Shown: one piece after another, positions 34,888 to 57,312 of the stretch
How the letters are laid out: the number at the start of each line of letters is the position of its first letter
How positions within the stretch are numbered: the stretch's first letter is position 1
Assembly (NCBI RefSeq): GCF_003339525.1
Contig: NZ_CP031124.1
Coordinates: forward strand, 1,488,001-1,552,000
Length of the DNA: 64,000 nucleotides
Direction of reading: 5' to 3'
Source of the DNA: Ephemeroptericola cinctiostellae
Lineage (GTDB): Bacteria; Pseudomonadota; Gammaproteobacteria; Burkholderiales; Burkholderiaceae
Translations under genes and position numbers: made by a program
The notes under the pieces: generated by a model
Database searches by the model: none
What the model saw: the letters and a program-made list of their open reading frames with translations, nothing else
What the model was told of the DNA's origin: nothing

Positions 34888-36334
34888 GAGGTTTCCTTGT
34901 GTGAATTAAAAAATCGTCACTTTATTAAAATGAAGTGACAAGTTTAAGCATGAATTATTACGTGATAAGTGAGTGAATTATCGTGTTAGAAGCTGTTTTG
35001 GTCAATAAAAATCCGTAATGGAGTGTTCGTCCATCGCCAATTGGTCTGAAAAACATGAGAGTTGCTTTGTGTAAACCTAGCCATTGTCTTGCTGTTTTGA
35101 GGTGATTTTTTTAATTGTCAAAAAAACAAGCCAATGAAATACAGGTGAAATGAAGTAAGTAAGCGTTTTGACTTGTAATTTAACATGTTGTTTGGCTTGA
35201 TTTGAACAATAAAAATTAAGCCCAATAGAGGCCAATGCAAAAAAGCAAGAAGAGGGTTGTTAATTGTCTCTTTGATAAGTGGCGTACAAACGCAAGCAAA
35301 ATGCGATTGAACATGCATTCATTGGCTTTTCTTCTGAGCCGCAATTGCTTCGATTCAAACATCCTGTCTGTTAATGGATTAAAAGCGATTGGAGGGGCAA
35401 ATGCAACGATGCATTTTCGTATTTTACTTGCAAGCGGACAATCAGGATTGTTTTTCATTTTGCAAGCATTTTGTACTGAAAAAATGCAGTGTTGTTATTA
35501 AGTAGTTGTTTGTGTTTATTTTAAAAAACATATACATGTTTTTTTGCATTTTAAAATTGGTTGATTTTTATTTTATATTAAATTATTTGCTTTTTTAAGT
35601 GATTATTTTTTATTTATTGTGTTTTTTCATAAATATTGACTAATTGCGTGTTTTTTTTGCCCATTGTTGGATTTTGTTAATCCATTTTTTACATGTGGTT
35701 ACATGGTTTTTATAGTAGTTTTATGTATCAAATATAGGTAAAATGAAAAGCAAACTGTATTTAAAAGGTGTGCAGCAGATAAAGGGCAAAAGTCGATAGG
35801 GTGCATCACTGGGCATTACAAAGCACACTTTATATAGATTGCCATTACGCTGATTGAGTATAAATTTTGTTTATTTAAACTCAGTAAAAAATGCAATGCG
35901 AAATATTTTAGGGATATCGTTAAATTGAGTCACCCAGCGTTTTGCATGATTCCAGAGTGAATTTATCCCATTCAAATAATTGCGATCGTTTTTTGGAATG
36001 TTTGAAGTTTATATTAGGTTTTTTCTCTTTGCTCTCAATAAATTGATACGCCTTTTAATGTGTTTGCTTTTTAAGACCCAAATTAATTGCGTACAGCCTT
36101 TAATGAATTATTTTAAATGATTGAGTGTTTTGTCTTGAAGCCTTGTTTTTTATTTAAAAATCAAAGTGCTATAGGTTTTATACATGTTGATCTTCGTTTT
36201 AAATTGATGTGATCACCTTGTTTTAACACGACAATCATTGACCTGAGTGTTGTTTTGGATGTTTTTTGAATCAAAGTTGACTGACTTTGATCGTTGCATT
36301 CCTTCGCATAACCATCTATTTTTAAGGAGTGGCT
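34888..36334. other. AT-rich 1.45-kb intergenic region
   Basis: No gene can be supported here. Composition is markedly AT-rich, with many TTTTT and AAAA runs from 35500 to 36150. Three short opposing frames (35118-35501) lack any domain or ribosome site. The region must contain the promoters of gabT and of the giant adhesin gene. No convincing sigma-70 hexamer pair stands out close to the adhesin start, so the adhesin may have a long leader. AT-rich DNA of this kind is a typical target for nucleoid silencing proteins. Confidence 0.5.
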
Positions 36335-39300
36335 GTGAACTTGAATTTTCGTAGTGTTTTTAATGAGCAAACAGGGACATGGGTGGCAGTGTCTGAAATT
36401 GTCGCGGCAAAAGGCAAGCGCAGCCGCGCTGCTATGGTTGTTGCAGTCTCGACCTTAATTGGGTCAGCTCTGATGGGAAGTCAAGCACAGGCACAGCTGT
36501 TCTTAACAGAGTCAGTTACGCCAAGTCAAGGCAATACAGCTACGGCTGGGCTAGTGGGTCTCATAGAAGCCCATAATTACGATACCAACACAACGGTTGA
36601 AAGCACGTTCGGAGGCTATTCTAGCATAGTGGGTGGGGCTAATAACAAACTGCTAGGTAAGAGTGAAATCGTATTTGGTATGGGTAATACCGATGCTGCA
36701 GCCGTTGCTGACAGCGTAATTTACGGCGCTTATAATAAGAACTCTGGTGCGACGGACGCTGTCCAGATTGGCAATCTTAATGTTGTTAATAATGGCGGTG
36801 GCTTCGGTGGTGGTTCCAATATAACATTGGGTTCGGCGAATACTGCTGCGGGGTATTACGCGTATGCCCTTGGTACTTTTGCTAAAGCAAGCAATGATTA
36901 TGCAATTGCATTTGGTACAGAAATTACAGCGGCAGGCTTAAATTCTATTGCGATGGGGCAAAATGCCCGAGCAACAGCGTCGGGAGCAATTGCGATTGGT
37001 AGTACGCCAGCCAATGCTTCAACAGGGCAATTTAAGTCTTCACAAGCGCAAGCGGCAACAGGTGTCAACTCAATTGCATTAGGGCAGTTGGATACAGCCA
37101 GCGGTGTGAGTGCTGTCGCAATAGGTACGAACTCAACTGCATCTGGTGATACATCCATCGCTTTCGGAAGTAATGCGTATGCCAATGCTGTGGGTAGTGT
37201 TGCGGTTGGCAAATCCTCAACCGCCATTGGTGTGGGTGCGATAGCAATGGGGGTGGAAGCCAGTGCTATGGGTGATAAATCGATTTCGATTGGTCAATCT
37301 GCGACAGCCGTTGGGATCGACGATACCGTCATTGGTACATCTGCTGGTACAGGCAGCGCGTCAACAAACAAAGACAACACCGCGGTGGGCTTCCTCGCAG
37401 GCCGCAGCGTATCGGGCGATGAAAATGCAGCACTTGGGCGTTCTACAGGTAACAATGTGACAGGCAGTGACAATACGGCTCTGGGGTCACGTGCGGGAAA
37501 TAGTGTGTCGGGCTCCACCAATGTGTCTATTGGCTTTTTTGCGGGCCAATTTGTGACGGGTACATCAAACAATGCCATTGGTTACTATGCGGGTAATAAT
37601 GTCAGCGGCGATACGAATGATGCCATTGGTTTTCAGGCAGGTCAAAAAGTAACTGGCGGTTCCAATGTGTCACTTGGCTTTCAAGCTGGTAACAGCGTCA
37701 GTGGTGGCGCCAACAATGCCATCGGCTTCCAATCGGGGATTAATGTATCTGGTGAGGGCAACAACTCACTTGGCCAATATGCAGGGCAAAGCGTGAGTGG
37801 CTGGAACAACACCAGTATTGGTAATGCTGCTGGAAAAAGTGTTAAAGGCAATGAGAATGTTGCCATTGGCTATGCGGCTGGCCAGAGCATTTCGGCATTT
37901 AGAACAAATGCCATAGGCTACAGTGCAACAGCCAGTAAAAATGATTCGATTGCCATCGGTACAGGTGCGATCGCTTCGGGCGTACAGTCCATCTCGATTG
38001 GGTATAAAAACAATGTGTCAGGTAATTTTTCTGGCGCCTTCGGTGATCCTTCTATTGTGATAGGCAGTCAATCTTATTCTGTTGGTAACAACAACTTAAT
38101 TTTGGTCGATAACTCATTTGCCCTAGGTAATAATATTTCCATTATTTCTGCTGCTAACACGATCAACGGAAACGTCGTGCTCGGTAATTTGTCTGCTGAC
38201 AAAGCGTATGCACAAGTCACCACGGGTACTGTAAGTGGCATCGTTTACAGCGGTTTTGCAGGAACAGCCAAGGGTGTTGTGTCTGTCGGCGCAGCAGGTG
38301 CTGAACGACAAGTGGTCAATGTTGCACCTGGTGCAGTTACGAGCACATCAACCGATGCCATTAACGGTTCCGAATTGTTCTACATTGCCAGTGGGCTTCA
38401 AAGTTCGATTGCATCCTTGTCAACCGCAACTTCAACAAGCATCAGCTCGGATAGAAGTGCAATTGCATCGCTTTCAAGTTTGACCTCAACGGGTTTGAGT
38501 TCAACCAACAGCGCAGTGGCTTCATTGTCCACTGTGACCTCAACGGGTTTGAGTTCAACCAACAGCGCAGTGGCTTCATTGTCAACCGCAACTTCAACAA
38601 GCATCAGCTCGGATAGAAGTGCAATTGCATCGCTTTCAAGCTTAACTTCAACAGGTTTGAGTTCAACTAACAGTGCGGTGGCATCATTATCGACTGTAAC
38701 TTCAACGGGTCTGAGTTCAACCAACAGTGCAATGGCTTCATTGTCAACTGTGACTTCAACAGGTTTGAGCTCAACCAACAGTGCAATGGCTTCATTGTCA
38801 ACTGTGACTTCAACAGGTCTGAGCTCAACCAACAGTGCAGTGGCATCGTTGTCAGCGGCATCGGGCAGTGCAGTGGCATCATTATCGACTGTGACTTCAA
38901 CAGGCTTGAGTTCAACCAACAGCGCGGTGGCTTCATTGTCGACAGCAACTTCAACAGGTCTGAGCTCAACCAACAGTGCAGTGGCTTCATTATCGACTGT
39001 GACTTCAACAGGCTTGAGTTCAACCAACAGCGCAGTGGCTTCATTGTCCACTGTGACTTCAACAAGCATCAGCTCGGATAGAAGTGCAATTGCATCGCTT
39101 TCAAGTTTAACTTCAACAGGCTTGAGTTCAACTAACAGTGCGGTAGCTTCATTGTCGACGGTAACTTCAACAGGTTTGAGTTCAACCAGCAGTGCAGTGG
39201 CATCGTTGTCGACGGTAACTTCAACGGGTTTGAGTTCAACTAACAGCGCCGTGGCTTCATTGTCGACAGCAACTTCAACAAGCATCAGCTCGGATAGAAG

Positions 39301-42300
39301 TGCAATTGCATCACTTTCAAGTTTGACTTCAACGGGTTTGAGTTCAACCAACAGCGCAGTGTCCTCATTGTCGACTGTGACTTCAACGGGTTTGAGCTCA
39401 ACCAGCAGTGCAGTGGCTTCATTGTCGACTGTGACTTCAACGGGTTTGAGTTCAACCAACAGCGCAGTGTCCTCATTGTCGACTGTGACTTCAACGGGTT
39501 TGAGCTCAACCAGCAGTGCAGTGGCTTCATTGTCGACTGTGACTTCAACGGGTTTGAGCTCAACCAACAGTGCAATGGCTTCGTTGTCGACAGTAACTTC
39601 AACAGGTTTGAGTTCAACCAGCAGTGCGGTGGCTTCATTGTCAACCGCAACTTCAACAAGCATCAGCTCGGATAGAAGTGCAATTGCATCGCTTTCAAGT
39701 TTAACTTCAACAGGCTTTAGCTCAACCAACAGCGCGGTGGCCTCATTGTCCACTGTGACTTCAACGGGTTTGAGCTCAACCAGCAGTGCGGTGTCCTCAT
39801 TGTCCACTGTGACTTCAACGGGTCTGAGTTCAACCAACAGCGCCGTGGCATCGTTGTCGACAGCAACTTCAACAAGCATCAGCTCTGATAGAAGTGCAAT
39901 TGCATCACTTTCAAGTTTGACTTCAACGGGTTTGAGTTCAACTAATAGCGCAGTGGCATCATTATCGACTGTAACTTCAACGGGTTTGAGCTCAACCAGC
40001 AGTGCAGTGGCTTCATTGTCGACTGTGACTTCAACGGGTTTGAGCTCAACCAACAGTGCAGTGGCATCATTATCGACTGTGACTTCAACAGGTTTGAGTT
40101 CAACCAGCAGTGCAGTGGCATCGTTGTCGACTGTAACTTCAACGGGTTTGAGTTCAACTAACAGCGCCGTGGCGTCATTGTCCACTGTGACTTCAACGGG
40201 TTTGAGCTCAACCAGCAGTGCAGTGGCTTCATTGTCGACTGTGACTTCAACGGGTTTGAGTTCAACCAACAGCGCAGTGTCCTCATTGTCGACTGTGACT
40301 TCAACGGGTTTGAGCTCAACCAGCAGTGCAGTGGCTTCATTGTCTACTGTGACTTCAACGGGTTTGAGCTCAACCAACAGTGCAATGGCTTCGTTGTCGA
40401 CAGTAACTTCAACAGGTTTGAGCTCAACCAGCAGTGCGGTGGCTTCATTGTCGACTGTAACTTCAACGGGTTTGAGCTCAATCAACAGTGCAATGGCTTC
40501 GTTGTCGACAGTAACTTCAACAGGTTTGAGTTCAACCAGCAGTGCGGTGGCTTCATTGTCAACCGCAACTTCAACAAGCATCAGCTCGGATAGAAGTGCA
40601 ATTGCATCGCTTTCAAGTTTAACTTCAACAGGCTTTAGCTCAACCAACAGCGCGGTGGCCTCATTGTCCACTGTGACTTCAACGGGTCTGAGTTCAACCA
40701 ACAGCGCCGTGGCATCGTTGTCGACAGCAACTTCAACAAGCATCAGCTCTGATAGAAGTGCAATTGCATCACTTTCAAGTTTGACTTCAACGGGTTTGAG
40801 CTCAACCAACAGCGCGGTGGCATCATTATCGACTGTGACTTCAACAGGCTTTAGCTCAACCAGCAGTGCGGTGGCTTCATTGTCGACTGTAACTTCAACG
40901 GGTTTGAGCTCAATCAACAGTACAGTGGGATCATTATCGACAGCAACTTCAACAAGCATTAGCTCGGATCGAAGTGCAATTGCATCATTATCAACGTCAA
41001 CATCAACTGGTTTGAGTTCGGCGAACAGCGCAATGGCCTCATTATCAACAGCAACAGGTAGCTCGGTCGCCTCGTTGTCAACTGTGACGTCAACAGGCTT
41101 GGGCGCTGTGGGTTCGGCCGTTGCATCATTGTCAACCGCGGCAGGCAGTTCTGTTGCCTCGTTGTCAACTGTGACGTCAACAGGCTTGAGCGCTGTGGGT
41201 TCGGCCGTTGCATCGTTGTCAACGGCAGCAGGTAGCTCAGTTGCCTCGTTGTCAACCTCGACCTCAACGGGATTGAGCACAGTTAACTCAACAATCGCAT
41301 CGCTGTCAACAGCGGCAGGCAGTTCGATTGCATCGTTGTCAACGGCAGCAGGCAGTTCGGTTGCTTCATTGTCAACCGTGACGGGCAGTTCGATTGCATC
41401 ATTGTCAACGGCAGCAGGCAGCTCGGTTGCTTCATTGTCAACCGTGACGGGTAGTTCGATTGCATCATTGTCAACGGCAGCAGGCAGTTCGGTTGCTTCG
41501 TTGTCAACAGTGACAGGCAGTTCGATTGCCTCGTTGTCAACGGCAGCAGGTAGCTCAGTTGCCTCGTTATCAACCTCGACCTCAGCGGGTTTGAGCACAG
41601 TTAATTCAACAATCGCATCGCTGTCAACGGCGGCAGGTAGTTCTGTTGCCTCGTTGTCAACCTTGACTTCAACAGGCTTCAGCACTGTGGATTCAACCGT
41701 GGCTTCATTGTCAACTTCGACTTCGACTGGCTTTAGCACTGTGGATTCAACCGTGGCTTCATTGTCAACTTCGACTTCGACAGGCTTCAGCACTGTGGAT
41801 TCGACTGTGGCTTCGTTGTCAACCGCAGCGGGTAGTTCGGTTGCATCGTTGTCGACTTCAACTTCAACAGGCTTCAGCACTGTGGATTCAACCGTGGCTT
41901 CATTGTCAACTTCGACTTCGACAGGCTTGAGTACTGTGGATTCGACTGTGGCTTCGTTGTCAACAGCGGCAGGCAGTTCGGTTGCATCATTGTCGACTTC
42001 GACTTCAACAGGCTTCAGCACTGTAGATTCAGCAGTGGCTTCGTTGTCAACATCGACTTCGACAGGCTTCAGCACTGTGGATTCAACCGTGGCTTCGTTG
42101 TCGACTTCGACTTCGACAGGCTTCAGCACTGTGGATTCAGCCGTGGCTTCATTGTCAACTTCGACTTCGACTGGCTTCAGTACGGTTGATTCAACAGTGG
42201 CTTCATTGTCAACTTCGACTTCAACAGGTTTGAGCACCGTTGATTCGGCGGTGGCTTCGTTGTCAACCGCAGCGGGTAGTTCGGTTGCTTCGTTGTCGAC

Positions 42301-45300
42301 TTCGACTTCGACAGGCTTCAGCACTGTGGATTCGACTGTGGCTTCGTTGTCAACCGCAGCGGGTAGTTCGGTTGCATCGTTGTCGACTTCAACTTCAACA
42401 GGCTTCAGCACTGTGGATTCAGCCGTGGCTTCGTTGTCGACTTCGACTTCGACTGGTTTGAGCACCGTTGATTCCGCGGTGGCTTCGTTGTCAACCGTAG
42501 CGGGTAGTTCGGTTGCCTCGTTGTCGACTTCGACTTCGACTGGTTTGAGCACCGTTGATTCCGCGGTGGCTTCGTTGTCAACCGCAGCGGGTAGTTCGGT
42601 TGCATCGTTGTCGACTTCAACTTCAACAGGCTTCAGCACTGTGGATTCAACCGTGGCTTCATTGTCAACTTCGACTTCAACAGGTTTGAGCACCGTTGAT
42701 TCGGCGGTGGCTTCGTTGTCAACCGCAGCGGGTAGTTCGGTTGCTTCATTGTCAACTTCGACTTCGACTGGCTTTAGCACTGTGGATTCAGCCGTGGCTT
42801 CGTTGTCGACTTCGACTTCGACAGGCTTCAGTACGGTGGATTCGACTGTGGCTTCGTTGTCGACTTCGACTTCGACAGGCTTCAGTACTGTGGATTCAAC
42901 CGTTGCTTCATTGTCAACTTCGACTTCGACAGGCTTGAGTACTGTGGATTCGACTGTGGCTTCGTTGTCAACAGCGGCAGGCAGTTCGGTTGCATCATTG
43001 TCGACTTCGACTTCAACAGGCTTCAGCACTGTAGATTCAGCAGTGGCTTCGTTGTCAACATCGACTTCGACAGGCTTCAGCACTGTGGATTCAACCGTGG
43101 CTTCATTGTCAACTTCGACTTCGACAGGCTTCAGCACTGTGGATTCAGCCGTGGCTTCATTGTCAACTTCGACTTCGACTGGCTTCAGTACGGTTGATTC
43201 AGCAGTGGCTTCGTTGTCGACTTCGACTTCGACTGGCTTTAGCACGGTGGATTCAGCAGTGGCTTCGTTGTCGACTTCGACTTCGACAGGCTTCAGCACT
43301 CTGGATTCAACCGTGGCTTCATTGTCGACTTCGACTTCAACAGGCTTCAGCACCGTTGATTCGACTGTGGCTTCATTGTCGACTTCGACTTCGACAGGCT
43401 TGAGTACTGTGGATTCAACCGTGGCTTCATTGTCAACATCGACTTCGACAGGCTTCAGCACTGTGGATTCGACTGTGGCTTCGTTGTCAACCGCAGCGGG
43501 TAGTTCGGTTGCTTCGTTGTCGACTTCGACTTCGACAGGATTCAGCACTGTGGATTCAGCCGTGGCTTCATTGTCGACTTCGACTTCGACAGGCTTGAGT
43601 ACTGTGGATTCGACGGTGGCTTCGTTGTCGACTTCGACTTCGACAGGCTTCAGTACGGTTGATTCAACAGTGGCTTCATTGTCGACTTCGACTTCGACAG
43701 GCTTCAGTACGGTTGATTCAACCGTGGCTTCGTTGTCAACCGCAGCGGGTAGTTCGGTTGCTTCGTTGTCGACTTCGACTTCGACAGGATTCAGCACTGT
43801 GGATTCAGCCGTGGCTTCATTGTCGACTTCGACTTCGACAGGCTTGAGTACTGTGGATTCGACGGTGGCTTCGTTGTCGACTTCGACTTCGACAGGCTTC
43901 AGTACGGTTGATTCAACAGTGGCTTCATTGTCGACTTCGACTTCGACAGGCTTCAGTACGGTTGATTCAACCGTGGCTTCGTTGTCAACTTCGACTTCAA
44001 CAGGTTTGAGCACCGTTGATTCCGCGGTGGCTTCGTTGTCAACCGCAGCGGGTAGTTCGGTTGCATCGTTGTCGACTTCAACTTCAACAGGCTTCAGCAC
44101 TGTGGATTCAACCGTGGCTTCATTGTCAACTTCGACTTCGACAGGCTTGAGTACTGTGGATTCGACTGTGGCTTCGTTGTCAACAGCGGCAGGCAGTTCG
44201 GTTGCATCATTGTCGACTTCGACTTCAACAGGCTTCAGCACTGTAGATTCAGCAGTGGCTTCGTTGTCGACTTCGACTTCGACAGGCTTCAGTACGGTGG
44301 ATTCGACTGTGGCTTCGTTGTCAACCGCAGCGGGTAGTTCGGTTGCTTCGTTGTCGACTTCGACTTCGACAGGATTCAGCACTGTGGATTCAGCCGTGGC
44401 TTCATTGTCGACTTCGACTTCGACAGGCTTGAGTACTGTGGATTCGACGGTGGCTTCGTTGTCGACTTCGACTTCGACAGGCTTCAGTACGGTTGATTCA
44501 ACAGTGGCTTCATTGTCGACTTCGACTTCGACAGGCTTCAGTACGGTTGATTCAACCGTGGCTTCGTTGTCAACTTCGACTTCAACAGGCTTGAGCACCG
44601 TTGATTCAGCTGTGGCTTCGTTGTCGACTTCCACTTCGACAGGCTTCAGCACTGTGGATTCAACAGTGGCATCATTGTCGACTTCGACTTCGACAGGCTT
44701 CAGCACTCTGGATTCGACCGTGGCTTCATTGTCAACTTCGACTTCGACTGGCTTCAGTACGGTTGATTCAACAGTGGCTTCGTTGTCGACTTCAACTTCG
44801 ACAGGTTTGAGCACCGTTGATTCCGCGGTGGCTTCGTTGTCAACCGCAGCGGGTAGTTCGGTTGCATCGTTGTCGACTTCAACTTCAACAGGCTTCAGCA
44901 CTGTGGATTCAACCGTGGCTTCATTGTCAACTTCGACTTCGACAGGCTTGAGTACTGTGGATTCGACTGTGGCTTCGTTGTCAACAGCGGCAGGCAGTTC
45001 GGTTGCATCATTGTCGACTTCGACTTCAACAGGCTTCAGCACTGTAGATTCAGCAGTGGCTTCGTTGTCGACTTCGATTTCGACTGGCTTCAGTACGGTT
45101 GATTCAACAGTGGCTTCATTGTCAACTTCGACTTCAACAGGTTTGAGCACCGTTGATTCCGCGGTGGCTTCGTTGTCAACCGCAGCGGGTAGTTCGGTTG
45201 CTTCGTTGTCGACTTCGACTTCGACAGGCTTCAGCACTGTGGATTCGACTGTGGCTTCGTTGTCAACAGCGGCAGGCAGTTCGGTTGCCTCGTTGTCGAC

Positions 45301-48300
45301 TTCGACTTCGACTGGTTTGAGCACCGTTGATTCCGCGGTGGCTTCGTTGTCAACCGCAGCGGGTAGTTCGGTTGCATCGTTGTCGACTTCAACTTCGACA
45401 GGCTTGAGTACTGTGGATTCGACTGTGGCTTCGTTGTCAACAGCGGCAGGCAGTTCGGTTGCATCATTGTCGACTTCGACTTCAACAGGCTTCAGCACTG
45501 TAGATTCAGCCGTGGCTTCATTGTCGACTTCGACTTCGACTGGCTTCAGTACGGTTGATTCAACAGTGGCTTCATTGTCAACTTCGACTTCAACAGGTTT
45601 GAGCACCGTTGATTCGGCGGTGGCTTCGTTGTCAACCGCAGCGGGTAGTTCGGTTGCTTCATTGTCAACTTCGACTTCGACTGGCTTCAGTACGGTTGAT
45701 TCAACAGTGGCTTCATTGTCAACTTCGACTTCAACAGGTTTGAGCACCGTTGATTCGGCGGTGGCTTCGTTGTCAACCGCAGCGGGTAGTTCGGTTGCAT
45801 CGTTGTCGACTTCAACTTCAACAGGCTTCAGCACTGTGGATTCAACCGTGGCTTCATTGTCAACTTCGACTTCGACAGGCTTGAGTACTGTGGATTCGAC
45901 TGTGGCTTCGTTGTCAACAGCGGCAGGCAGTTCGGTTGCATCATTGTCGACTTCGACTTCAACAGGCTTCAGTACGGTGGATTCGACTGTGGCTTCGTTG
46001 TCAACAGCGGCAGGCAGTTCGGTTGCCTCGTTGTCGACTTCGACTTCGACTGGTTTGAGCACCGTTGATTCCGCGGTGGCTTCGTTGTCAACCGCAGCGG
46101 GTAGTTCGGTTGCATCGTTGTCGACTTCAACTTCAACAGGCTTCAGCACTGTGGATTCAACCGTGGCTTCATTGTCAACTTCGACTTCGACAGGCTTGAG
46201 TACTGTGGATTCGACTGTGGTTTCGTTGTCAACAGCGGCAGGCAGTTCGGTTGCATCATTGTCGACTTCGACTTCAACAGGCTTCAGCACTGTAGATTCA
46301 GCAGTGGCTTCGTTGTCGACTTCGACTTCGACAGGCTTCAGTACGGTGGATTCGACTGTGGCTTCGTTGTCAACAGCGGCAGGCAGTTCGGTTGCATCAT
46401 TGTCGACTTCGACTTCAACAGGCTTCAGCACTGTCGATTCAACAGTGGCATCATTGTCGACTTCGACTTCGACAGGCTTCAGTACGGTGGATTCGACTGT
46501 GGCTTCGTTGTCGACTTCGACTTCGACAGGCTTCAGTACTGTGGATTCAACCGTGGCTTCATTGTCAACTTCGACTTCGACAGGCTTGAGTACTGTGGAT
46601 TCGACTGTGGCTTCGTTGTCAACAGCGGCAGGCAGTTCGGTTGCCTCGTTGTCGACTTCGACTTCGACTGGTTTGAGCACCGTTGATTCCGCGGTGGCTT
46701 CGTTGTCAACCGCAGCGGGTAGTTCGGTTGCATCGTTGTCGACTTCAGCTTCAACAGGCTTCAGTACGGTTGATTCAACAGTAGCATCGTTGTCAACGTC
46801 AACTTCGACAGGCTTGAGCACTGTGGATTCAGCAGTGGCTTCGTTGTCGACTTCAACCTCAACAGGTTTGAGTACCGTTGATTCTGCTGTTGCATCATTG
46901 TCAACGTCAACTTCGACAGGTTTGAGCACGGTGGATTCAGCTGTGGCTTCGTTGTCGACTTCGACTTCAACGGGTTTGAGCACGGTGGATTCAACCGTGG
47001 CATCATTGTCGACTTCAACTTCAACAGGCTTCAGTACGGTTGATTCAACAGTGGCTTCGTTGTCAACGTCAACTTCGACAGGCTTGAGCACCGTTGATTC
47101 AGCAGTGGCTTCGTTGTCAACTTCGACTTCAACAGGCTTGAGTACTGTGGATTCAACCGTGGCATCGTTGTCGACTTCAACTTCGACAGGCTTGAGCACT
47201 GTGGATTCAGCTGTGGCTTCGTTGTCGACATCGACTTCGACAGGTTTGAGCACCGTTGATTCGGCTGTGGCTTCATTGTCGACATCGACTTCGACAGGCT
47301 TTAGCACTGTGGATTCAACGGTGGCTTCATTGTCGACTTCGACTTCAACAGGCTTCAGTACGGTAGACAGCTCGATTGCATCGTTGTCGACATCGACTTC
47401 AACAGGCTTCAGTACCGTGGATTCAACCGTGGCATCATTGTCGACTTCGACTTCAACAGGCTTCAGTACCGTGGATTCAACCGTGGCATCATTGTCGACT
47501 TCGACTTCAACAGGCTTCAGCACTGTAGATTCAGCAGTGGCTTCATTGTCGACATCGACTTCAACAGGCTTCAGCACTGTGGATTCAACAGTGGCATCAT
47601 TGTCGACTTCAACTTCGACAGGCTTGAGTACTGTGGATTCGACTGTGGCTTCGTTGTCAACCGCAGCGGGTAGTTCGGTTGCATCATTGTCAACTTCGAC
47701 TTCAACAGGCTTCAGCACTGTGGATTCAACAGTGGCATCATTGTCGACTTCAACTTCGACAGGCTTGAGTACTGTGGATTCGACTGTGGCTTCGTTGTCA
47801 ACCGCAGCGGGTAGTTCGGTTGCATCATTGTCAACTTCGACTTCAACAGGCTTTAGCTCTGTCGATTCAACAGTGGCATCATTGTCGACTTCAACTTCAA
47901 CAGGCTTCAGCACTGTAGATTCAGCCGTGGCTTCGTTGTCGACTTCGACTTCGACAGGCTTTAGCACTGTGGATTCAACAGTGGCATCATTGTCGACTTC
48001 AACTTCGACAGGCTTGAGTACTGTGGATTCGACTGTGGCTTCGTTGTCAACCGCAGCGGGTAGTTCGGTTGCATCATTGTCAACTTCGACTTCAACAGGC
48101 TTTAGCTCTGTCGATTCAACAGTGGCATCATTGTCGACTTCGACTTCAACAGGCTTCAGCACTGTAGATTCAGCAGTGGCTTCGTTGTCAACATCGACTT
48201 CGACAGGCTTTAGCACCGTTGATTCAGCCGTGGCTTCGTTGTCGACTTCAACTTCGACAGGCTTGAGCACTGTGGATTCAGCCGTGGCTTCATTGTCAAC

Positions 48301-51300
48301 GTCAACTTCAACAGGCTTTAGCACTGTCGATTCAACAGTTGCTTCGTTATCGACTTCAACTTCAACAGGCTTTAGCACTGTCGATTCAACAGTTGCTTCG
48401 TTATCGACTTCAACTTCAACAGGCTTTAGCACTGTCGATTCAACAGTTGCTTCGTTATCGACTTCAACTTCAACAGGCTTTAGCACTGTCGATTCAACAG
48501 TTGCTTCGTTATCGACTTCAACTTCAACAGGCTTTAGCACTGTCGATTCAACAGTTGCTTCGTTATCGACTTCAACTTCAACAGGCTTTAGCACTGTCGA
48601 TTCAACAGTTGCTTCGTTATCGACTTCAACTTCAACAGGCTTTAGCACTGTCGATTCAACAGTTGCTTCGTTATCGACTTCAACTTCAACAGGCTTTAGC
48701 ACTGTCGATTCAACAGTTGCTTCGTTATCGACTTCAACTTCGACAGGCTTGAGCACTGTCGATTCAACAGTGGCTTCATTGTCGACATCGACTTCAACAG
48801 GCTTCAGCACTGTGGATTCAACAGTGGCTTCGTTGTCAACTTCGACTTCGACTGGCTTTAGTACTGTGGATTCAGCAGTGGCTTCGTTGTCAACGTCAAC
48901 TTCAACAGGCTTCAGCACTGTTGATTCAGCAGTGGCTTCGTTATCGACTTCAACTTCAACAGGCTTGAGTACTGTGGATTCGACTGTGGCTTCGTTGTCA
49001 ACGTCAACTTCGACAGGCTTCAGCACTGTGGATTCAACAGTGGCTTCGTTGTCAACTTCGACTTCGACTGGCTTTAGTACTGTGGATTCAGCAGTGGCTT
49101 CGTTGTCGACTTCGACTTCGACAGGCTTGAGTACTGTGGATTCGACAGTGGCTTCGTTGTCAACGTCAACTTCGACAGGCTTCAGTACGGTAGATAGCTC
49201 GATTGCATCGTTGTCGACTTCAACTTCGACAGGCTTCAGCACTGTGGATTCAACAGTGGCTTCATTGTCAACATCGACTTCAACAGGCTTCAACACTGTG
49301 GATTCAGCCGTGGCATCATTGTCGACTTCGACTTCAACAGGTTTGAGTACTGTGGATTCAACAGTGGCTTCGTTGTCAACTTCGACTTCGACTGGCTTTA
49401 GTACTGTGGATTCAGCAGTGGCTTCGTTGTCGACTTCGACTTCGACAGGCTTGAGTACTGTGGATTCGACAGTGGCTTCGTTGTCAACGTCAACTTCGAC
49501 AGGCTTCAGTACGGTAGATAGCTCGATTGCATCGTTGTCGACTTCAACTTCGACAGGCTTCAGCACTGTGGATTCAACAGTGGCTTCATTGTCAACATCG
49601 ACTTCAACAGGCTTCAGCACTGTGGATTCAGCCGTGGCTTCATTGTCGACTTCGACTTCAACAGGCTTTAGCACTGTGGATTCAACAGTGGCTTCATTGT
49701 CAACTTCAACTTCAACAGGCTTGAGTTCTGTGGATTCGACCGTGGCTTCGTTGTCAACAGTGACGGGTAGTTCGATTGCTTCATTGTCGACTGCGGTGTC
49801 TACGATGGCTTCGACGACCTTGAGTGTGGCGAACAGCTCGATTGCTTCGTTGTCAACTTCGACTTCAACGGGTTTCAGCACTGTGGACTCAACCGTGGCT
49901 TCGTTGTCAACTTCGACTTCAACAGGCTTCAGCACTGTGGATTCAACAGTGGCTTCGTTGTCAACTTTGACTTCAACGGGTTTCAGCGCAGTTGATTCAA
50001 CAGTGGCTTCGTTGTCGACCTCGACTTCAACAGGTTTAAGTACTGTGGATTCGAGTGTGGCTTCGTTGTCAACAGCAGCCGGCAGTTCAGTTGCTTCGTT
50101 GTCAACGTCAACTTCAACTGGTTTGAGCTCGGTGGATTCGGCAGTGGCTTCATTGTCAACAGTGACGGGTAGCTCGATTGCTTCATTGTCGACTGCGGTG
50201 TCTACGATGGCTTCGACGACCTTGAGTGTGGCGAACAGTTCGATTGCTTCGTTGTCGACCTCGACTTCAACAGGTTTAAGTACTGTGGATTCGAGTGTGG
50301 CTTCATTGTCAACGTCAACGTCAACTGGTTTGAGCACGGTGGATTCGGCAGTGGCTTCATTGTCAACAGTGACGGGTAGCTCGATTGCTTCATTGTCGAC
50401 TGCGGTGTCTACGATGGCTTCGACGACCTTGAGTGTGGCGAACAGTTCGATTGCTTCGTTGTCAACTTCGACTTCAACGGGTTTCAGTACAGTTGATTCA
50501 ACAGTGGCTTCGTTGTCGACCTCGACTTCAACAGGTTTAAGTACTGTGGATTCGAGTGTGGCTTCGTTGTCAACAGTGACGGGTAGTTCGATTGCTTCAT
50601 TGTCGACTGCGGTGTCTACGATGGCTTCGACGACCTTGAGTGTGGCGAACAGTTCGATTGCTTCGTTGTCGACCTCGACTTCAACAGGTTTAAGTACTGT
50701 GGATTCGAGTGTGGCTTCGTTGTCAACAGCAGCCGGCAGTTCAGTTGCTTCGTTGTCAACTTCGACTTCAACAGGCTTCAGCACTGTGGATTCAACAGTG
50801 GCTTCGTTGTCAACGTCAACTTCAACTGGTTTGAGCACGGTGGATTCGGCAGTGGCTTCGTTGTCAACATCGACTTCAACGGGTTTCAGTACAGTTGATT
50901 CAACAGTGGCTTCGTTGTCGACCTCGACTTCAACAGGTTTAAGTACTGTGGATTCGAGTGTGGCTTCATTGTCAACGTCAACGTCAACTGGTTTGAGCAC
51001 GGTGGATTCAGCTGTGGCTTCGTTGTCAACATCGACAGGCAGTTCGGTCGCTTCATTGTCGACTGCGGTGTCTACGATGGCTTCAACGACCTTGAGTGTG
51101 GCGAACAGTTCGATTGCTTCGTTGTCAACATCGACTTCAACGGGTTTCAGTACAGTTGATTCAACAGTGGCTTCGTTGTCGACCTCGACTTCAACAGGTT
51201 TAAGTACTGTGGATTCGAGTGTGGCTTCATTGTCAACGTCAACGTCAACTGGTTTGAGCACGGTGGATTCAGCTGTGGCTTCGTTGTCAACATCGACAGG

Positions 51301-53353
51301 CAGTTCGGTCGCTTCATTGTCGACTGCGGTGTCTACGATGGCTTCAACGACCTTGAGTGTGGCGAACAGTTCGATTGCTTCGTTGTCAACTTCGACGTCA
51401 ACGGGTTTCAGTACAGTTGATTCAACAGTGGCTTCGTTGTCAACGTCAACTTCAACTGGTTTGAGCACGGTGGATTCGGCAGTGGCTTCATTGTCAACAG
51501 TGACGGGTAGTTCGATTGCTTCATTGTCGACTGCGGTGTCTACGATGGCTTCGACGACCTTGAGTGTGGCGAACAGTTCGATTGCTTCGTTGTCAACTTC
51601 GACTTCAACGGGTTTCAGTACAGTTGATTCAACAGTGGCTTCGTTGTCGACCTCGACTTCAACAGGTTTAAGTACTGTGGATTCGAGTGTGGCTTCGTTG
51701 TCAACAGCAGCCGGCAGTTCAGTTGCTTCGTTGTCAACTTCGACTTCAACAGGCTTCAGCACTGTGGATTCAACAGTGGCTTCGTTGTCAACGTCAACGT
51801 CAACTGGTTTGAGCACGGTGGATTCAGCTGTGGCTTCGTTGTCAACAGTGACGGGTAGTTCGATTGCTTCATTGTCGACTGCGGTGTCTACGATGGCTTC
51901 GATGACCTTGAGTGTGGCGAACAGTTCGATTGCTTCGTTGTCAACTTCGACTTCAACGGGTTTGAGCACGGTGGATTCAGCTGTGGCTTCATTGTCAACA
52001 GTGACGGGTAGTTCGATTGCTTCATTGTCGACTGCGGTGTCTACGATGGCTTCAACAACCTTGAGTGTGGCGAACAGTTCGATTGCTTCGTTGTCAACTT
52101 CGACTTCAACGGGTTTCAGTACCGTTGATTCAACAGTGGCTTCATTGTCGACTTCGACTTCGACAGGCTTGAGTTCCGTGAATTCTGCGGTGGCTTCATT
52201 GTCGACGACCGTTTCAGCAATGGCTTCGACCACTTTGAGTACGGCGAATAGCACAATTGCTTCGTTGTCGACGGTGACGGGCAGTTCGATTGCTTCGTTG
52301 TCAACTTCGACTTCAACGGGTTTCAGCACGGTTGATTCAACAGTGGCTTCGTTGTCAACTTCGACTTCGACAGGCTTGAGTTCGGTGAATTCTGCGGTGG
52401 CTTCATTGTCGACGACCGTTTCAGCGATGGCTTCGACCACTTTGAGTACGGCGAATAGTACAATTGCTTCGTTGTCGACGGTGACGGGCAGCTCGATTGC
52501 TTCGTTGTCGACAGTGACAGGTAGTTCGATCGCTTCGTTGTCAACGGTGGTGTCTTCGATGGCTTCAACGACTTTGAGCACTTCGAACAGTTCGATTGCT
52601 TCGTTGTCGACGGTGACGGGCAGTGCTATTGCGTCGTTGTCAACTTTGACTTCGACTGGCTTGAGCTCGACCAACAGTGCGGTGGCTTCGTTGTCTACTT
52701 CGGTGTCTTCTTTGTCAACGACGGTGAATGTCATTAACAATGCAGGTACGAAGTATTTCCAAGCCAATTCAACGGAGGCGGGCGCGCAGGCTGTGGGCAA
52801 TAACTCGGTGGCGATTGGTCCTAATTCGGTGGCGAATGGTGACAGTTCAGTGGCTATGGGCAATGGGGCTGTGACCACGACCAGTGCGACCAATTCGTTG
52901 GCGATGGGTACGAGCGCGACGGCTTCGGCGGCTAATTCTGTGGCTTTGGGTTCGAATTCAGTGGCCAATGAGGCCAATACGGTATCGGTCGGTTCTGCGG
53001 GCAGTGAACGTCGAATCACCAATGTGGCTGAAGGCGTAAACGGCACGGATGCGGTGAATGTGAATCAGTTGAAAGGTATGGGCAGTGTAATCAATGCAAA
53101 AATTGATGGTTTGGATAACAAATTGTCTGCGGGTGTTGCATCAGCGATTGCATTACAAGCACCTGCATTGATTGTTCCCGGTAAAACGACAGTCAGAGCA
53201 GGGGTCGGTTACTTTAGAGGTCAAACAGCGATGGGTGTTTCTGTACGACAAACGGCTGATAATGGTCGATGGAGTTTAACTGGCGGTGTATCTGCAAGCA
53301 AAGGCGGTGTTGCTGCGGGAGCAGGTGTTGAATGGGTGATGGGTAAAGATTGA
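36335..53353 (+). CDS. Giant trimeric autotransporter adhesin
   Basis: A 5,672-residue type Vc adhesin. In order: an ESPR and signal peptide (VFNEQTGTWVAVSE near residue 8; cleavage after AQA near 53); YadA-like head repeats to about 640, with a 16-residue repeat block at about 353-528; a neck (AAGAERQVVNVAPG, then TDAINGSELF, about 647-685); and a stalk of about 4,770 residues built of 11-, 18- and 22-residue units such as VASLSTSTSTGFSTVDST. Then come a second head (NNSVAIGPNSVANGD), a neck (GSERRITNVAEG, then TDAVNVNQL) and a C-terminal YadA anchor ending GVEWVMGKD. I set the start at GTG 36335, 5 nt after AAGGAG at 36324-36329; the GTG at 36329 overlaps that site. The anchor forms a trimeric barrel in the outer membrane and exports the rest. 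Adhesion or biofilm role is inferred. Confidence 0.95.
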   Translation: MNLNFRSVFNEQTGTWVAVSEIVAAKGKRSRAAMVVAVSTLIGSALMGSQAQAQLFLTESVTPSQGNTATAGLVGLIEAHNYDTNTTVESTFGGYSSIVGGANNKLLGKSEIVFGMGNTDAAAVADSVIYGAYNKNSGATDAVQIGNLNVVNNGGGFGGGSNITLGSANTAAGYYAYALGTFAKASNDYAIAFGTEITAAGLNSIAMGQNARATASGAIAIGSTPANASTGQFKSSQAQAATGVNSIALGQLDTASGVSAVAIGTNSTASGDTSIAFGSNAYANAVGSVAVGKSSTAIGVGAIAMGVEASAMGDKSISIGQSATAVGIDDTVIGTSAGTGSASTNKDNTAVGFLAGRSVSGDENAALGRSTGNNVTGSDNTALGSRAGNSVSGSTNVSIGFFAGQFVTGTSNNAIGYYAGNNVSGDTNDAIGFQAGQKVTGGSNVSLGFQAGNSVSGGANNAIGFQSGINVSGEGNNSLGQYAGQSVSGWNNTSIGNAAGKSVKGNENVAIGYAAGQSISAFRTNAIGYSATASKNDSIAIGTGAIASGVQSISIGYKNNVSGNFSGAFGDPSIVIGSQSYSVGNNNLILVDNSFALGNNISIISAANTINGNVVLGNLSADKAYAQVTTGTVSGIVYSGFAGTAKGVVSVGAAGAERQVVNVAPGAVTSTSTDAINGSELFYIASGLQSSIASLSTATSTSISSDRSAIASLSSLTSTGLSSTNSAVASLSTVTSTGLSSTNSAVASLSTATSTSISSDRSAIASLSSLTSTGLSSTNSAVASLSTVTSTGLSSTNSAMASLSTVTSTGLSSTNSAMASLSTVTSTGLSSTNSAVASLSAASGSAVASLSTVTSTGLSSTNSAVASLSTATSTGLSSTNSAVASLSTVTSTGLSSTNSAVASLSTVTSTSISSDRSAIASLSSLTSTGLSSTNSAVASLSTVTSTGLSSTSSAVASLSTVTSTGLSSTNSAVASLSTATSTSISSDRSAIASLSSLTSTGLSSTNSAVSSLSTVTSTGLSSTSSAVASLSTVTSTGLSSTNSAVSSLSTVTSTGLSSTSSAVASLSTVTSTGLSSTNSAMASLSTVTSTGLSSTSSAVASLSTATSTSISSDRSAIASLSSLTSTGFSSTNSAVASLSTVTSTGLSSTSSAVSSLSTVTSTGLSSTNSAVASLSTATSTSISSDRSAIASLSSLTSTGLSSTNSAVASLSTVTSTGLSSTSSAVASLSTVTSTGLSSTNSAVASLSTVTSTGLSSTSSAVASLSTVTSTGLSSTNSAVASLSTVTSTGLSSTSSAVASLSTVTSTGLSSTNSAVSSLSTVTSTGLSSTSSAVASLSTVTSTGLSSTNSAMASLSTVTSTGLSSTSSAVASLSTVTSTGLSSINSAMASLSTVTSTGLSSTSSAVASLSTATSTSISSDRSAIASLSSLTSTGFSSTNSAVASLSTVTSTGLSSTNSAVASLSTATSTSISSDRSAIASLSSLTSTGLSSTNSAVASLSTVTSTGFSSTSSAVASLSTVTSTGLSSINSTVGSLSTATSTSISSDRSAIASLSTSTSTGLSSANSAMASLSTATGSSVASLSTVTSTGLGAVGSAVASLSTAAGSSVASLSTVTSTGLSAVGSAVASLSTAAGSSVASLSTSTSTGLSTVNSTIASLSTAAGSSIASLSTAAGSSVASLSTVTGSSIASLSTAAGSSVASLSTVTGSSIASLSTAAGSSVASLSTVTGSSIASLSTAAGSSVASLSTSTSAGLSTVNSTIASLSTAAGSSVASLSTLTSTGFSTVDSTVASLSTSTSTGFSTVDSTVASLSTSTSTGFSTVDSTVASLSTAAGSSVASLSTSTSTGFSTVDSTVASLSTSTSTGLSTVDSTVASLSTAAGSSVASLSTSTSTGFSTVDSAVASLSTSTSTGFSTVDSTVASLSTSTSTGFSTVDSAVASLSTSTSTGFSTVDSTVASLSTSTSTGLSTVDSAVASLSTAAGSSVASLSTSTSTGFSTVDSTVASLSTAAGSSVASLSTSTSTGFSTVDSAVASLSTSTSTGLSTVDSAVASLSTVAGSSVASLSTSTSTGLSTVDSAVASLSTAAGSSVASLSTSTSTGFSTVDSTVASLSTSTSTGLSTVDSAVASLSTAAGSSVASLSTSTSTGFSTVDSAVASLSTSTSTGFSTVDSTVASLSTSTSTGFSTVDSTVASLSTSTSTGLSTVDSTVASLSTAAGSSVASLSTSTSTGFSTVDSAVASLSTSTSTGFSTVDSTVASLSTSTSTGFSTVDSAVASLSTSTSTGFSTVDSAVASLSTSTSTGFSTVDSAVASLSTSTSTGFSTLDSTVASLSTSTSTGFSTVDSTVASLSTSTSTGLSTVDSTVASLSTSTSTGFSTVDSTVASLSTAAGSSVASLSTSTSTGFSTVDSAVASLSTSTSTGLSTVDSTVASLSTSTSTGFSTVDSTVASLSTSTSTGFSTVDSTVASLSTAAGSSVASLSTSTSTGFSTVDSAVASLSTSTSTGLSTVDSTVASLSTSTSTGFSTVDSTVASLSTSTSTGFSTVDSTVASLSTSTSTGLSTVDSAVASLSTAAGSSVASLSTSTSTGFSTVDSTVASLSTSTSTGLSTVDSTVASLSTAAGSSVASLSTSTSTGFSTVDSAVASLSTSTSTGFSTVDSTVASLSTAAGSSVASLSTSTSTGFSTVDSAVASLSTSTSTGLSTVDSTVASLSTSTSTGFSTVDSTVASLSTSTSTGFSTVDSTVASLSTSTSTGLSTVDSAVASLSTSTSTGFSTVDSTVASLSTSTSTGFSTLDSTVASLSTSTSTGFSTVDSTVASLSTSTSTGLSTVDSAVASLSTAAGSSVASLSTSTSTGFSTVDSTVASLSTSTSTGLSTVDSTVASLSTAAGSSVASLSTSTSTGFSTVDSAVASLSTSISTGFSTVDSTVASLSTSTSTGLSTVDSAVASLSTAAGSSVASLSTSTSTGFSTVDSTVASLSTAAGSSVASLSTSTSTGLSTVDSAVASLSTAAGSSVASLSTSTSTGLSTVDSTVASLSTAAGSSVASLSTSTSTGFSTVDSAVASLSTSTSTGFSTVDSTVASLSTSTSTGLSTVDSAVASLSTAAGSSVASLSTSTSTGFSTVDSTVASLSTSTSTGLSTVDSAVASLSTAAGSSVASLSTSTSTGFSTVDSTVASLSTSTSTGLSTVDSTVASLSTAAGSSVASLSTSTSTGFSTVDSTVASLSTAAGSSVASLSTSTSTGLSTVDSAVASLSTAAGSSVASLSTSTSTGFSTVDSTVASLSTSTSTGLSTVDSTVVSLSTAAGSSVASLSTSTSTGFSTVDSAVASLSTSTSTGFSTVDSTVASLSTAAGSSVASLSTSTSTGFSTVDSTVASLSTSTSTGFSTVDSTVASLSTSTSTGFSTVDSTVASLSTSTSTGLSTVDSTVASLSTAAGSSVASLSTSTSTGLSTVDSAVASLSTAAGSSVASLSTSASTGFSTVDSTVASLSTSTSTGLSTVDSAVASLSTSTSTGLSTVDSAVASLSTSTSTGLSTVDSAVASLSTSTSTGLSTVDSTVASLSTSTSTGFSTVDSTVASLSTSTSTGLSTVDSAVASLSTSTSTGLSTVDSTVASLSTSTSTGLSTVDSAVASLSTSTSTGLSTVDSAVASLSTSTSTGFSTVDSTVASLSTSTSTGFSTVDSSIASLSTSTSTGFSTVDSTVASLSTSTSTGFSTVDSTVASLSTSTSTGFSTVDSAVASLSTSTSTGFSTVDSTVASLSTSTSTGLSTVDSTVASLSTAAGSSVASLSTSTSTGFSTVDSTVASLSTSTSTGLSTVDSTVASLSTAAGSSVASLSTSTSTGFSSVDSTVASLSTSTSTGFSTVDSAVASLSTSTSTGFSTVDSTVASLSTSTSTGLSTVDSTVASLSTAAGSSVASLSTSTSTGFSSVDSTVASLSTSTSTGFSTVDSAVASLSTSTSTGFSTVDSAVASLSTSTSTGLSTVDSAVASLSTSTSTGFSTVDSTVASLSTSTSTGFSTVDSTVASLSTSTSTGFSTVDSTVASLSTSTSTGFSTVDSTVASLSTSTSTGFSTVDSTVASLSTSTSTGFSTVDSTVASLSTSTSTGFSTVDSTVASLSTSTSTGFSTVDSTVASLSTSTSTGLSTVDSTVASLSTSTSTGFSTVDSTVASLSTSTSTGFSTVDSAVASLSTSTSTGFSTVDSAVASLSTSTSTGLSTVDSTVASLSTSTSTGFSTVDSTVASLSTSTSTGFSTVDSAVASLSTSTSTGLSTVDSTVASLSTSTSTGFSTVDSSIASLSTSTSTGFSTVDSTVASLSTSTSTGFNTVDSAVASLSTSTSTGLSTVDSTVASLSTSTSTGFSTVDSAVASLSTSTSTGLSTVDSTVASLSTSTSTGFSTVDSSIASLSTSTSTGFSTVDSTVASLSTSTSTGFSTVDSAVASLSTSTSTGFSTVDSTVASLSTSTSTGLSSVDSTVASLSTVTGSSIASLSTAVSTMASTTLSVANSSIASLSTSTSTGFSTVDSTVASLSTSTSTGFSTVDSTVASLSTLTSTGFSAVDSTVASLSTSTSTGLSTVDSSVASLSTAAGSSVASLSTSTSTGLSSVDSAVASLSTVTGSSIASLSTAVSTMASTTLSVANSSIASLSTSTSTGLSTVDSSVASLSTSTSTGLSTVDSAVASLSTVTGSSIASLSTAVSTMASTTLSVANSSIASLSTSTSTGFSTVDSTVASLSTSTSTGLSTVDSSVASLSTVTGSSIASLSTAVSTMASTTLSVANSSIASLSTSTSTGLSTVDSSVASLSTAAGSSVASLSTSTSTGFSTVDSTVASLSTSTSTGLSTVDSAVASLSTSTSTGFSTVDSTVASLSTSTSTGLSTVDSSVASLSTSTSTGLSTVDSAVASLSTSTGSSVASLSTAVSTMASTTLSVANSSIASLSTSTSTGFSTVDSTVASLSTSTSTGLSTVDSSVASLSTSTSTGLSTVDSAVASLSTSTGSSVASLSTAVSTMASTTLSVANSSIASLSTSTSTGFSTVDSTVASLSTSTSTGLSTVDSAVASLSTVTGSSIASLSTAVSTMASTTLSVANSSIASLSTSTSTGFSTVDSTVASLSTSTSTGLSTVDSSVASLSTAAGSSVASLSTSTSTGFSTVDSTVASLSTSTSTGLSTVDSAVASLSTVTGSSIASLSTAVSTMASMTLSVANSSIASLSTSTSTGLSTVDSAVASLSTVTGSSIASLSTAVSTMASTTLSVANSSIASLSTSTSTGFSTVDSTVASLSTSTSTGLSSVNSAVASLSTTVSAMASTTLSTANSTIASLSTVTGSSIASLSTSTSTGFSTVDSTVASLSTSTSTGLSSVNSAVASLSTTVSAMASTTLSTANSTIASLSTVTGSSIASLSTVTGSSIASLSTVVSSMASTTLSTSNSSIASLSTVTGSAIASLSTLTSTGLSSTNSAVASLSTSVSSLSTTVNVINNAGTKYFQANSTEAGAQAVGNNSVAIGPNSVANGDSSVAMGNGAVTTTSATNSLAMGTSATASAANSVALGSNSVANEANTVSVGSAGSERRITNVAEGVNGTDAVNVNQLKGMGSVINAKIDGLDNKLSAGVASAIALQAPALIVPGKTTVRAGVGYFRGQTAMGVSVRQTADNGRWSLTGGVSASKGGVAAGAGVEWVMGKD
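37391..37918 (+). repeat. Eleven 48-bp repeats in the adhesin head
   Basis: Eleven consecutive 16-residue units of the form xxAGxxVSGxxNxxIG (for example FFAGQFVTGTSNNAIG, YYAGNNVSGDTNDAIG, FQAGNSVSGGANNAIG), diverged at DNA level. The spacing differs from the usual 14-residue YadA head unit found on either side. Confidence 0.9.
39571..40688 (+). repeat. Segmental duplication within the stalk
   Basis: A block of about 200 bp starting at 39571 recurs unchanged from 40489, an offset of 918 bp, which equals 17 units of 54 bp. The unchanged third positions show a recent copying event rather than selection on protein. Confidence 0.75.
48317..48748 (+). repeat. Eight exact copies of a 54-bp unit
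   Basis: The unit TTTAGCACTGTCGATTCAAC (first 20 bases) begins at 48317, 48371, 48425, 48479, 48533, 48587, 48641 and 48695, always 54 bp apart and identical throughout. The copy after that changes to TTGAGC. Codon choice in this block differs from neighbouring units, so it arose by recent tandem expansion from one founder. Confidence 0.95.
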
Positions 53354-54261: not shown

Positions 54262-54669
54262 CAGATAGATATTTTATGACTCATCAAAAAAAATGGCACT
54301 TGGGGTGCCATTTTTTTGACATGTTTTTCTGTGTCTTTAGGTGGGGCGAAGTGATTTTTTGTGTGGCTTAACCAAATGATATGTGATACGTAAATATACT
54401 TAAAATAACTACACTTCTTGCTTAAGTTATAATAAAATAATAATAAAGGGTCTGAAAGCCTAAGCTGTTTAAAAAAAATTTTACTTTAAAAAATATTTAA
54501 AACTAAAATCAACAGGTTATGCCGTTCTGCCAGATTTTTTAATAGTAAAGCAACTCAAGATGATGTCGTTTAGATAAAATAAACTATATCAATTGAGTGC
54601 CCTAAAATGAATGTGTGATAAAGTTCACACAGTGCAAAGATGGACATTTTTTCAAGGTGAAATGGATAG
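54262..54669. other. Intergenic region between the adhesin and pilin operons
   Basis: About 400 bp, AT-rich, with the tpgA-like terminator at its start. The rest should contain the minor-pilin promoter. An open frame at 54611-54805 overlapping fimT has no supporting feature. Confidence 0.55.
54286..54317 (+). terminator. Terminator of the adhesin operon
   Basis: A stem AAAATGGCAC / GTGCCATTTT around a TTGGG loop, ending in seven T residues, 25 bp after the tpgA-like stop. Confidence 0.92.
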
Positions 54670-56764: not shown

Positions 56765-56765
56765 G

Positions 56766-57308: not shown

Positions 57309-57312
57309 TCAA

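Follow-up and report, generated by a model that had tools for sequence, protein, structure and literature searches.

A 5,672-residue predicted trimeric autotransporter with an SLST-type stalk and a TpgA-like partner gene in Ephemeroptericola cinctiostellae

Results

A giant autotransporter gene and its flanks

The window, meaning the whole stretch of 64,000 nucleotides of Ephemeroptericola cinctiostellae DNA that was analysed, holds a gene for a giant trimeric autotransporter adhesin (TAA), here called T1, followed by a gene for a TpgA-like protein (Table 1). The listing of open reading frames gives 5,674 codons without a stop at 36329-53353 (+), and, as an earlier note on this DNA had claimed, the frame is open throughout its 17 kb. 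With the ribosome-binding-site-like motif AAGGAG at 36324-36329 lying just 5 bases 5' of GTG 36335, this GTG, at which the earlier note also began the gene, was taken as the start codon, and the protein therefore has 5,672 residues; residue numbers in the text are counted from 36329 and are hence 2 above a count from the GTG.

Table 1. Features of T1 and its immediate flanks (positions in the window)
Feature	Position	Strand	Basis or remark
AT-rich upstream intergenic region	34888..36323	.	31.5% G+C over 34888-36334; presumably holds promoter
Giant TAA gene T1	36335..53353	+	5,672 residues
Extended signal peptide region (ESPR)	36335..36496	+	PF13018, 38.9 bits, cut-off 25
N-terminal head: YadA-type repeats, then N-AIG-x-AG-x-VSG repeats	36497..38248 (end approximate)	+	PF05658 and sequence
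Neck ahead of stalk (GAERQVVNVAPG ... TDAINGSELF)	38249..38410	+	by eye
SLST-type stalk, unbroken, 4,765 residues	38411..52705	+	[AS]SLS landmarks, composition, periodicity
Second, membrane-proximal YadA-type head	52751..53044	+	PF05658, 55.8 bits, cut-off 25
Neck and short stalk	53012..53128	+	YadA_stalk PF05662, 44.6 bits, cut-off 28.4
YadA_anchor, four beta-strands per chain	53177..53335	+	PF03895, 39.4 bits, cut-off 22.7
TpgA-like periplasmic partner, BamE-like N domain and OmpA-like C domain	53449..54261	+	Pfam, NCBIfam, PDB
Terminator-like hairpin, 3' of TpgA-like gene	54287..54317	+	2 such sites vs 1.1 expected in shuffles

All the parts for export and anchoring that the earlier note had described as kept are indeed there, with ESPR, heads, neck, stalk and YadA_anchor over the Pfam cut-offs. 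The N-terminal head is matched by PF05658 (YadA_head) in four stretches (103.2 bits, cut-off 25), and signal cleavage would fall after ...AQAQ. The second head forms short strands in an AlphaFold2 model and matches the structures of BoaA, BpaC (BMA1027) and SadA, and the anchor is modelled as four strands and matches the transmembrane structures of AtaA and Hia. Sequence, Pfam and the model agree on the order head, neck and stalk that the TAA class requires, and all 16 PDB matches at E <= 0.001 are TAAs. These data identify T1 as a TAA (type Vc secretion), predicted to form a homotrimer on the outer membrane.

A frame open over 17 kb, with recognizable domains at both ends and with repeat units whose dN/dS is about 0.17, is not a product of chance, and by its sequence T1 is a real and intact gene. 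An antisense frame of 4,882 aa at 38398-53046 (-) was rejected as a gene; it stays open because no sense codon between residues 691 and 5476 begins with TA or CA (Tyr, His, Gln or stop). In the upstream region (34888-36334), 10 promoter-like sites were counted, compared with a shuffle mean of 6.9 (sd 2.7), none of them nameable as a promoter, and an Rfam search of window positions 34888-36323 yielded no match at gathering score. This 1.4 kb intergenic region may hold silencing or regulatory sites. Elsewhere in the window, 18449-19558 (+) encodes a repeat-rich, probably secreted protein with eight RTX calcium-binding nonapeptide stretches.

A stalk built of a few unit lengths

The landmark [AS]SLS occurs 285 times between residues 695 and 5459 of T1, and its 284 intervals comprise 210 of 18 residues, 59 of 11, 12 of 22, and one each of 36, 29 and 7. 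As the looser landmark xSL[SA] divides the 36 into 18+18 and the 29 into 18+11, the whole 4,765-residue stalk consists of consecutive 18-, 11- and 22-residue units and a single unit of 7. Across all 210 of the 18-residue units, S2, L3, S4, S8 and S16 are invariant, position 11 is F, L or I and position 18 is V, I or M, while T7 is found in 208 and G10 in 202. The stalk uses just 12 amino-acid types, with Ser and Thr together making up 56.6% of it; its only charged residues are 167 Asp and 9 Arg. Its serine-rich repeats start with SLST, as do those of Burkholderia TAAs.

Among 4,000 random pairs drawn from the 210 units, the synonymous difference was 0.50 and the non-synonymous difference 0.13, giving the dN/dS cited above, by which measure the stalk unit is under selection. 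The DNA likeness of units falls with their spacing, from a mean of 0.84 at distance 1 to 0.73 at distance 120, the pattern expected of local duplication.

Fold and length of the stalk

Units of 7, 11, 14, 18, 22, 29 and 36 residues all come close to an integral number of alpha-helical turns and can be written as sums of 7 and 11, as would be expected of a coiled coil made of heptads and hendecads. When each distinct unit of 7-45 residues was counted once (18 of the 39 integers in this range qualify), the sums held for 191 of 196 units in the eight TAAs of the host genome, for 146 of 148 in nine loci of other genera and for 139 of 172 in six congener TAA loci, the other 33 congener units breaking the rule; pooled, with units common to several groups counted once, 462 of 502 fit. 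The congener TAAs also have 30- and 26-residue spacings, which may reflect 15-residue repeats. The hydrophobic residues of the T1 stalk show a peak at a period of 3.61 (power 33.4, versus 4.1 in the 2.0-2.4 band), and assigning layers as 18/5, 11/3 and 22/6 likewise gives 3.61 residues per turn, which implies a rod with almost no supercoil. Taken alone, the periodicity is little proof of a coiled coil, since a control in which the non-18 units were randomly resized (60 trials) gave a mean power of 17.1 and a best of 36.3.

Structure prediction gave different pictures for the two parts of the stalk that were modelled. Given 30 aligned natural sequences, AlphaFold2 folds residues 8-132 of the last 335 as one helix, with pLDDT of 64-83 per 10-residue block except at the ends, followed by a beta-roll, a neck helix and the four strands. 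This helix spans residues 5347-5471, which are the last 113 residues of the stalk (units 18, 22, 11, 11, 22, 11, 18, 7) and 12 more. A mid-stalk piece, for which the alignment consisted of eight further pieces of the T1 stalk, was modelled as beta-strands, at a mean pLDDT of 51, and this model was set aside because of its low confidence and because AlphaFold2 is reported to be biased to beta-solenoids for perfect repeats (PMC11795689).

Read literally, the mid-stalk model, with about two strands per 18-residue unit in a stalk rich in Thr and Val, would describe a beta-solenoid of 265 turns of 18 residues each. At a rise of about 0.48 nm per turn, such a stalk would be only about 0.13 micrometre long. 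We consider this very unlikely, as the interspersed 7-, 11-, 14- and 22-residue units should break the stacking, the stalk end with its units of 18, 22, 11 and 7 is helical where natural homologues informed the model, and the strands come with a pLDDT of just 51 from a method reported to produce spurious solenoids when repeats are perfect. The composition could also suit an extended, disordered Ser/Thr brush without a defined rod, perhaps O-glycosylated, as the authors of a study of BCAM2418 have raised for its SLST repeats (PMC7142374). This too seems unlikely, since disorder has no need of unit lengths that keep a register, and the hydrophobic positions are fixed, with L3 in every one of the 18-residue units. 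The oligosaccharyltransferase profile PF15864 had no match in the host genome, and none in the control genomes either, which makes this result uninformative. Ser, Thr and Gly, 62% of the stalk, are poor helix formers, which counts against a helical stalk; the unit lengths and the C-terminal model support it, and we infer a coiled coil along the entire stalk.

If the stalk is alpha-helical throughout, its 4,765 residues at 0.148-0.15 nm per residue would measure 705-715 nm. The length of about 0.7 micrometre proposed in the earlier note thus stands on that condition, backed by the unit lengths and the C-terminal model and with helix in mid-stalk as its assumption. The 3,630 residues of AtaA form a fibre of just about 260 nm (PMC13082670), which indicates that fibre length is not simply proportional to residue number. 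For scale, cells are described as 0.4-0.5 by 0.7-2.8 micrometres in Ephemeroptericola cinctiostellae, and a cell size of "0.7-2.2" micrometres is given for its relative Hydromonas duriensis (PMC12634028).

The TpgA-like partner

The TpgA-like gene begins 95 bases 3' of T1. Its product scores over the cut-offs for PF04355 (45.4 bits) and PF00691 (70.1 bits) and matches chain B of PDB 9vnj, the TpgA of the AtaA-TpgA crystal structure, with E 3.3e-11; on NF047726 it reaches 132.6 bits, under the equivalog cut-off of 350, and for this reason it is named TpgA-like rather than TpgA. It is at most 41% identical to the other full-length TpgA-like proteins found in the genus. All 11 TpgA-like sequences aligned from the genus have D193 and R208, and these residues bind peptidoglycan in OmpA. 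Among 79 TpgA loci from named records (best 80 of 443), a TAA barrel end lies at most about 330 bp upstream in 71, of which 70 were recognized by a script pattern and one (L053) by eye. No TAA end was found upstream in the other eight (L088, L092, L096, L100, L102, L105, L119 and L122); the contig of L088 starts 228 bases upstream of the TpgA gene. At one Burkholderia pyrrocinia locus, the short gene that comes after an SLST-stalk TAA carries no annotation but BamE (L132, 10522-10926). The TpgA-like protein encoded beside T1 probably fastens T1 to the cell wall.

Eight TAA genes in one genome

The ESPR matches eight open frames in the host genome, of 5,675, 3,977, 3,281, 2,454, 2,237, 1,771, 1,032 and 950 codons (T1-T8), which together take up 2.35% of the genome and encode 21,376 residues. 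An SLST stalk is present in every one of them, with T8 alternating 11 and 14, and seven appear in the PF03895 anchor list, which missed the anchor of T3. A TpgA-like gene follows seven of the eight. The exception, T6 (L034, G000:C1:1663000-1674000, ORF 2340-7655), runs about 30 residues past the usual barrel end, as judged by eye, and this tail is perhaps a periplasmic extension replacing TpgA.

Long tracts of DNA are identical between these genes: 605 bases in T1 and T3, which lie about 0.74 Mb apart, 287 in T1 and T5, 728 in T2 and T4, and 260 in T3 and T4, with at most 141 in the other pairs. Compared over the 600 bp that precede the neck, T1 has 94.8% identity with T3 and 95.8% with T5, and after the neck the identity drops to 52.4% and 54.1%, respectively; the drop is smaller against T4 (74.0 to 61.2%) and nearly absent against T2 (56.4 to 53.4%). 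In T1 and T5, 135 pre-anchor residues are identical, compared with 37% identity for the anchors and 36% for the TpgA-like proteins. The fall in identity together with the shared identical tracts suggests that gene conversion or recombination has copied passenger DNA from one locus to another, and that in T1, T3 and T5 this exchange would stop short of the barrel, leaving the anchors distinct.

The same identical tracts, shared with T3 and T5, would make a misjoin of paralogues possible, and repeats of this kind break draft assemblies, the TAA frame running to a contig end in 5 of 13 congener loci fetched. That the length of T1 is an assembly error, through such a misjoin or an expanded tandem array, nevertheless appears highly improbable: the genome is a single complete contig of 2.72 Mb (rated 100% complete), the frame stays open over its full length, the longest exact repeat within T1 is 386 bp, short for any long read, and its 210 18-residue units have 139 distinct DNA sequences.

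In order to compare anchors with their partners, Mantel tests were run over 15 TAA-TpgA pairs, with near-identical orthologues included and with five congener loci omitted where the TAA end or the TpgA was missing or cut (L039, L041, L043, L048, L049). Anchor and TpgA distances were congruent (r 0.57, p 0.0002), with lower values for passenger and TpgA (r 0.30, p 0.047) and for anchor and passenger (r 0.38, p 0.028). The seven pairs of the host genome alone gave r 0.42 (p 0.083) for anchor and TpgA and r 0.36 (p 0.064) for passenger and TpgA. In congener G003, two loci (L046 and L047) have anchors that are 44% identical, passenger ends that are 94% identical and identical TpgAs. Given these identical TpgAs, the orthologues among the pairs and the p of 0.083 within the host genome, the data do no more than suggest co-evolution of each anchor with its TpgA.

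The T1 site in congeners

Downstream of T1, small genes are clustered at window positions 54670-57717 (+), and N-methylation and GspH motifs mark some of them as minor pilins. These genes are 33-51% identical to those of congeners G001 and G002 and 73-84% to two seen in G005, and their neighbours are well conserved. In congener G002, the aminotransferase gene that flanks T1 on the left is separated by just about 0.4 kb from the minor-pilin cluster that flanks it on the right, with no TAA in between, and neither the anchor search nor the stalk search matched this genome. The pilin cluster of G001 likewise has no TAA directly ahead, in a rearranged order. The site could be compared in these two genomes, as contigs end on both sides of it in G005 and the flanks lie on separate contigs in G003 and G004. 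The head DNA of T1 has only short matches elsewhere in the genus. On this comparison T1 is accessory, either gained in the host or lost elsewhere. One congener TAA in G001 (L040, G001:C6, ORF 2840-10108 (-)) has no ESPR start and lies, as seen by eye, beside two transposase-like frames; it is possibly a disrupted gene.

Discussion

We regard it as highly likely that T1 and its neighbour form a two-gene adhesin unit, in which T1 builds a trimeric coiled-coil fibre of about 0.7 micrometre braced by the TpgA-like partner. The T1 chain would leave the cytoplasm via Sec, the C-terminal parts of three chains would together make up one trimeric outer-membrane barrel, and the chains would thread outward and zip into a fibre that carries, from the tip, a head, the 4,765-residue stalk as a continuous trimeric coiled-coil rod, the second head, the neck and the anchor. 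The TpgA-like protein would grip the barrel on its periplasmic side and link it to peptidoglycan, so that the long rod could bear pull. Stalk length probably shifts by recombination between units and between paralogues, and lengths that preserve the helical register would be those that survive.

More tentatively, and with rather more doubt than confidence, the stalk may be an unbroken, nearly non-supercoiled and almost uncharged trimeric coiled coil, possibly the longest continuous one seen, with a length set by the copying of phase-keeping 18-, 11- and 22-residue units, and at least five TAA genes (T1-T5) may act as one pool in which DNA for the stalk and the membrane-proximal head is swapped or converted, each anchor remaining paired with a TpgA-like "socket" of its own.

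As predicted from sequence, T1 would be a natural extreme of length and simplicity for a secreted coiled-coil rod, and the length and continuity of its stalk are the points of specialist interest, with expression, fold and length being predictions. The 7/11 unit rule offers a testable account of how a fibre could change length without breaking, and the seven TAA-TpgA pairs, with differing anchors and some near-identical passenger ends, provide a system for the study of anchor-tether specificity. We know of no association of the Hydromonas lineage with disease. The lineage that carries this large TAA set has been recorded in fresh water (H. duriensis, PMC12634028).

Comparison with known systems

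T1, as the earlier note had stated, is larger than AtaA and BadA, with 5,672 residues against 3,630 (PMC3498257) and 3,082 (PMC7247746). In a wider comparison with 160 other TAAs, which span 3,123-5,563 residues and were selected for their length and for a similar anchor or stalk, making them a sample of giant TAAs rather than a census of all TAAs, T1 exceeds every one. Its size alone was rejected as unprecedented, since six of the 160 have 5,000-5,563 residues. These proteins came from an anchor search (120 matches listed of 328) and a stalk search (40 listed, scored among the 986 candidates that shared most words with the query); a search with the signal-peptide end of T1 gave no match, and all three covered proteins of about 3,120-9,930 residues. 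A limited literature search found no paper on the distribution of TAA lengths. The longest stretch of T1 that lacks K, E, Q, Y, H, P, C and W has 4,783 residues, versus at most 77 in all 160 TAAs listed, and such a run reaches 1,884 residues in the SLST-stalk TAAs fetched from other genera. Within the same family, the anchor matched in 248 of 398 genomes, the longest open frame among the matches listed being 4,562, and 88 of 299 genomes had a match to the stalk query.

T1 and its partner resemble AtaA and TpgA of Acinetobacter sp. Tol 5 in their arrangement, a TAA with a YadA-type anchor and a YadA-type head near either end that is paired with TpgA or a TpgA-like protein, and by sequence the T1 anchor and the TpgA-like protein match chains A and B of PDB 9vnj. 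TpgA is described as a peptidoglycan-linked brace of AtaA, and pairs of TAAs and TpgA-like proteins occur in many genera (PMC13082670). AtaA differs in its stalk, with repeats of 58-243 residues as reported (PMC3498257, PMC13082670) against a run of 7-22-residue units in T1.

In the stalk, T1 resembles the Burkholderia TAAs BoaA, BoaB, BMA1027 and its orthologues and BCAM2418, for which serine-rich SLST repeats in strain-variable number are reported (PMC2955633, PMC4021183, PMC7142374), and its second head matches the structures of two of them. The nine loci of other genera share the 7/11 rule; in seven same-family SLST loci fetched the longest landmark run is 1,865 residues versus 4,765 in T1, and units of 14 are common in the former and units of 22 in T1. 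The passages available of the cited SLST and TpgA papers, and a limited literature search, yielded no statement of this rule. Giant TAAs of Acinetobacter and Neisseria (P0026, 5,563 aa; P0080, 5,104 aa) are like T1 in length, ESPR and anchor, and differ in that 240-residue excerpts from mid-protein, viewed by eye in nine proteins, have a different and mostly modular sequence. NadA3 of Neisseria meningitidis, a TAA coiled coil whose crystal structure combines heptads with 11-residue repeats, is reported to have two undecads (PMC6191539), whereas T1 has 59 separate 11-residue units along with 210 of 18 and 12 of 22. Judged by its sequence, T1 is therefore no new class of protein; it is an extreme member of the known TAA family, which joins the AtaA-TpgA arrangement to a Burkholderia-type SLST stalk.
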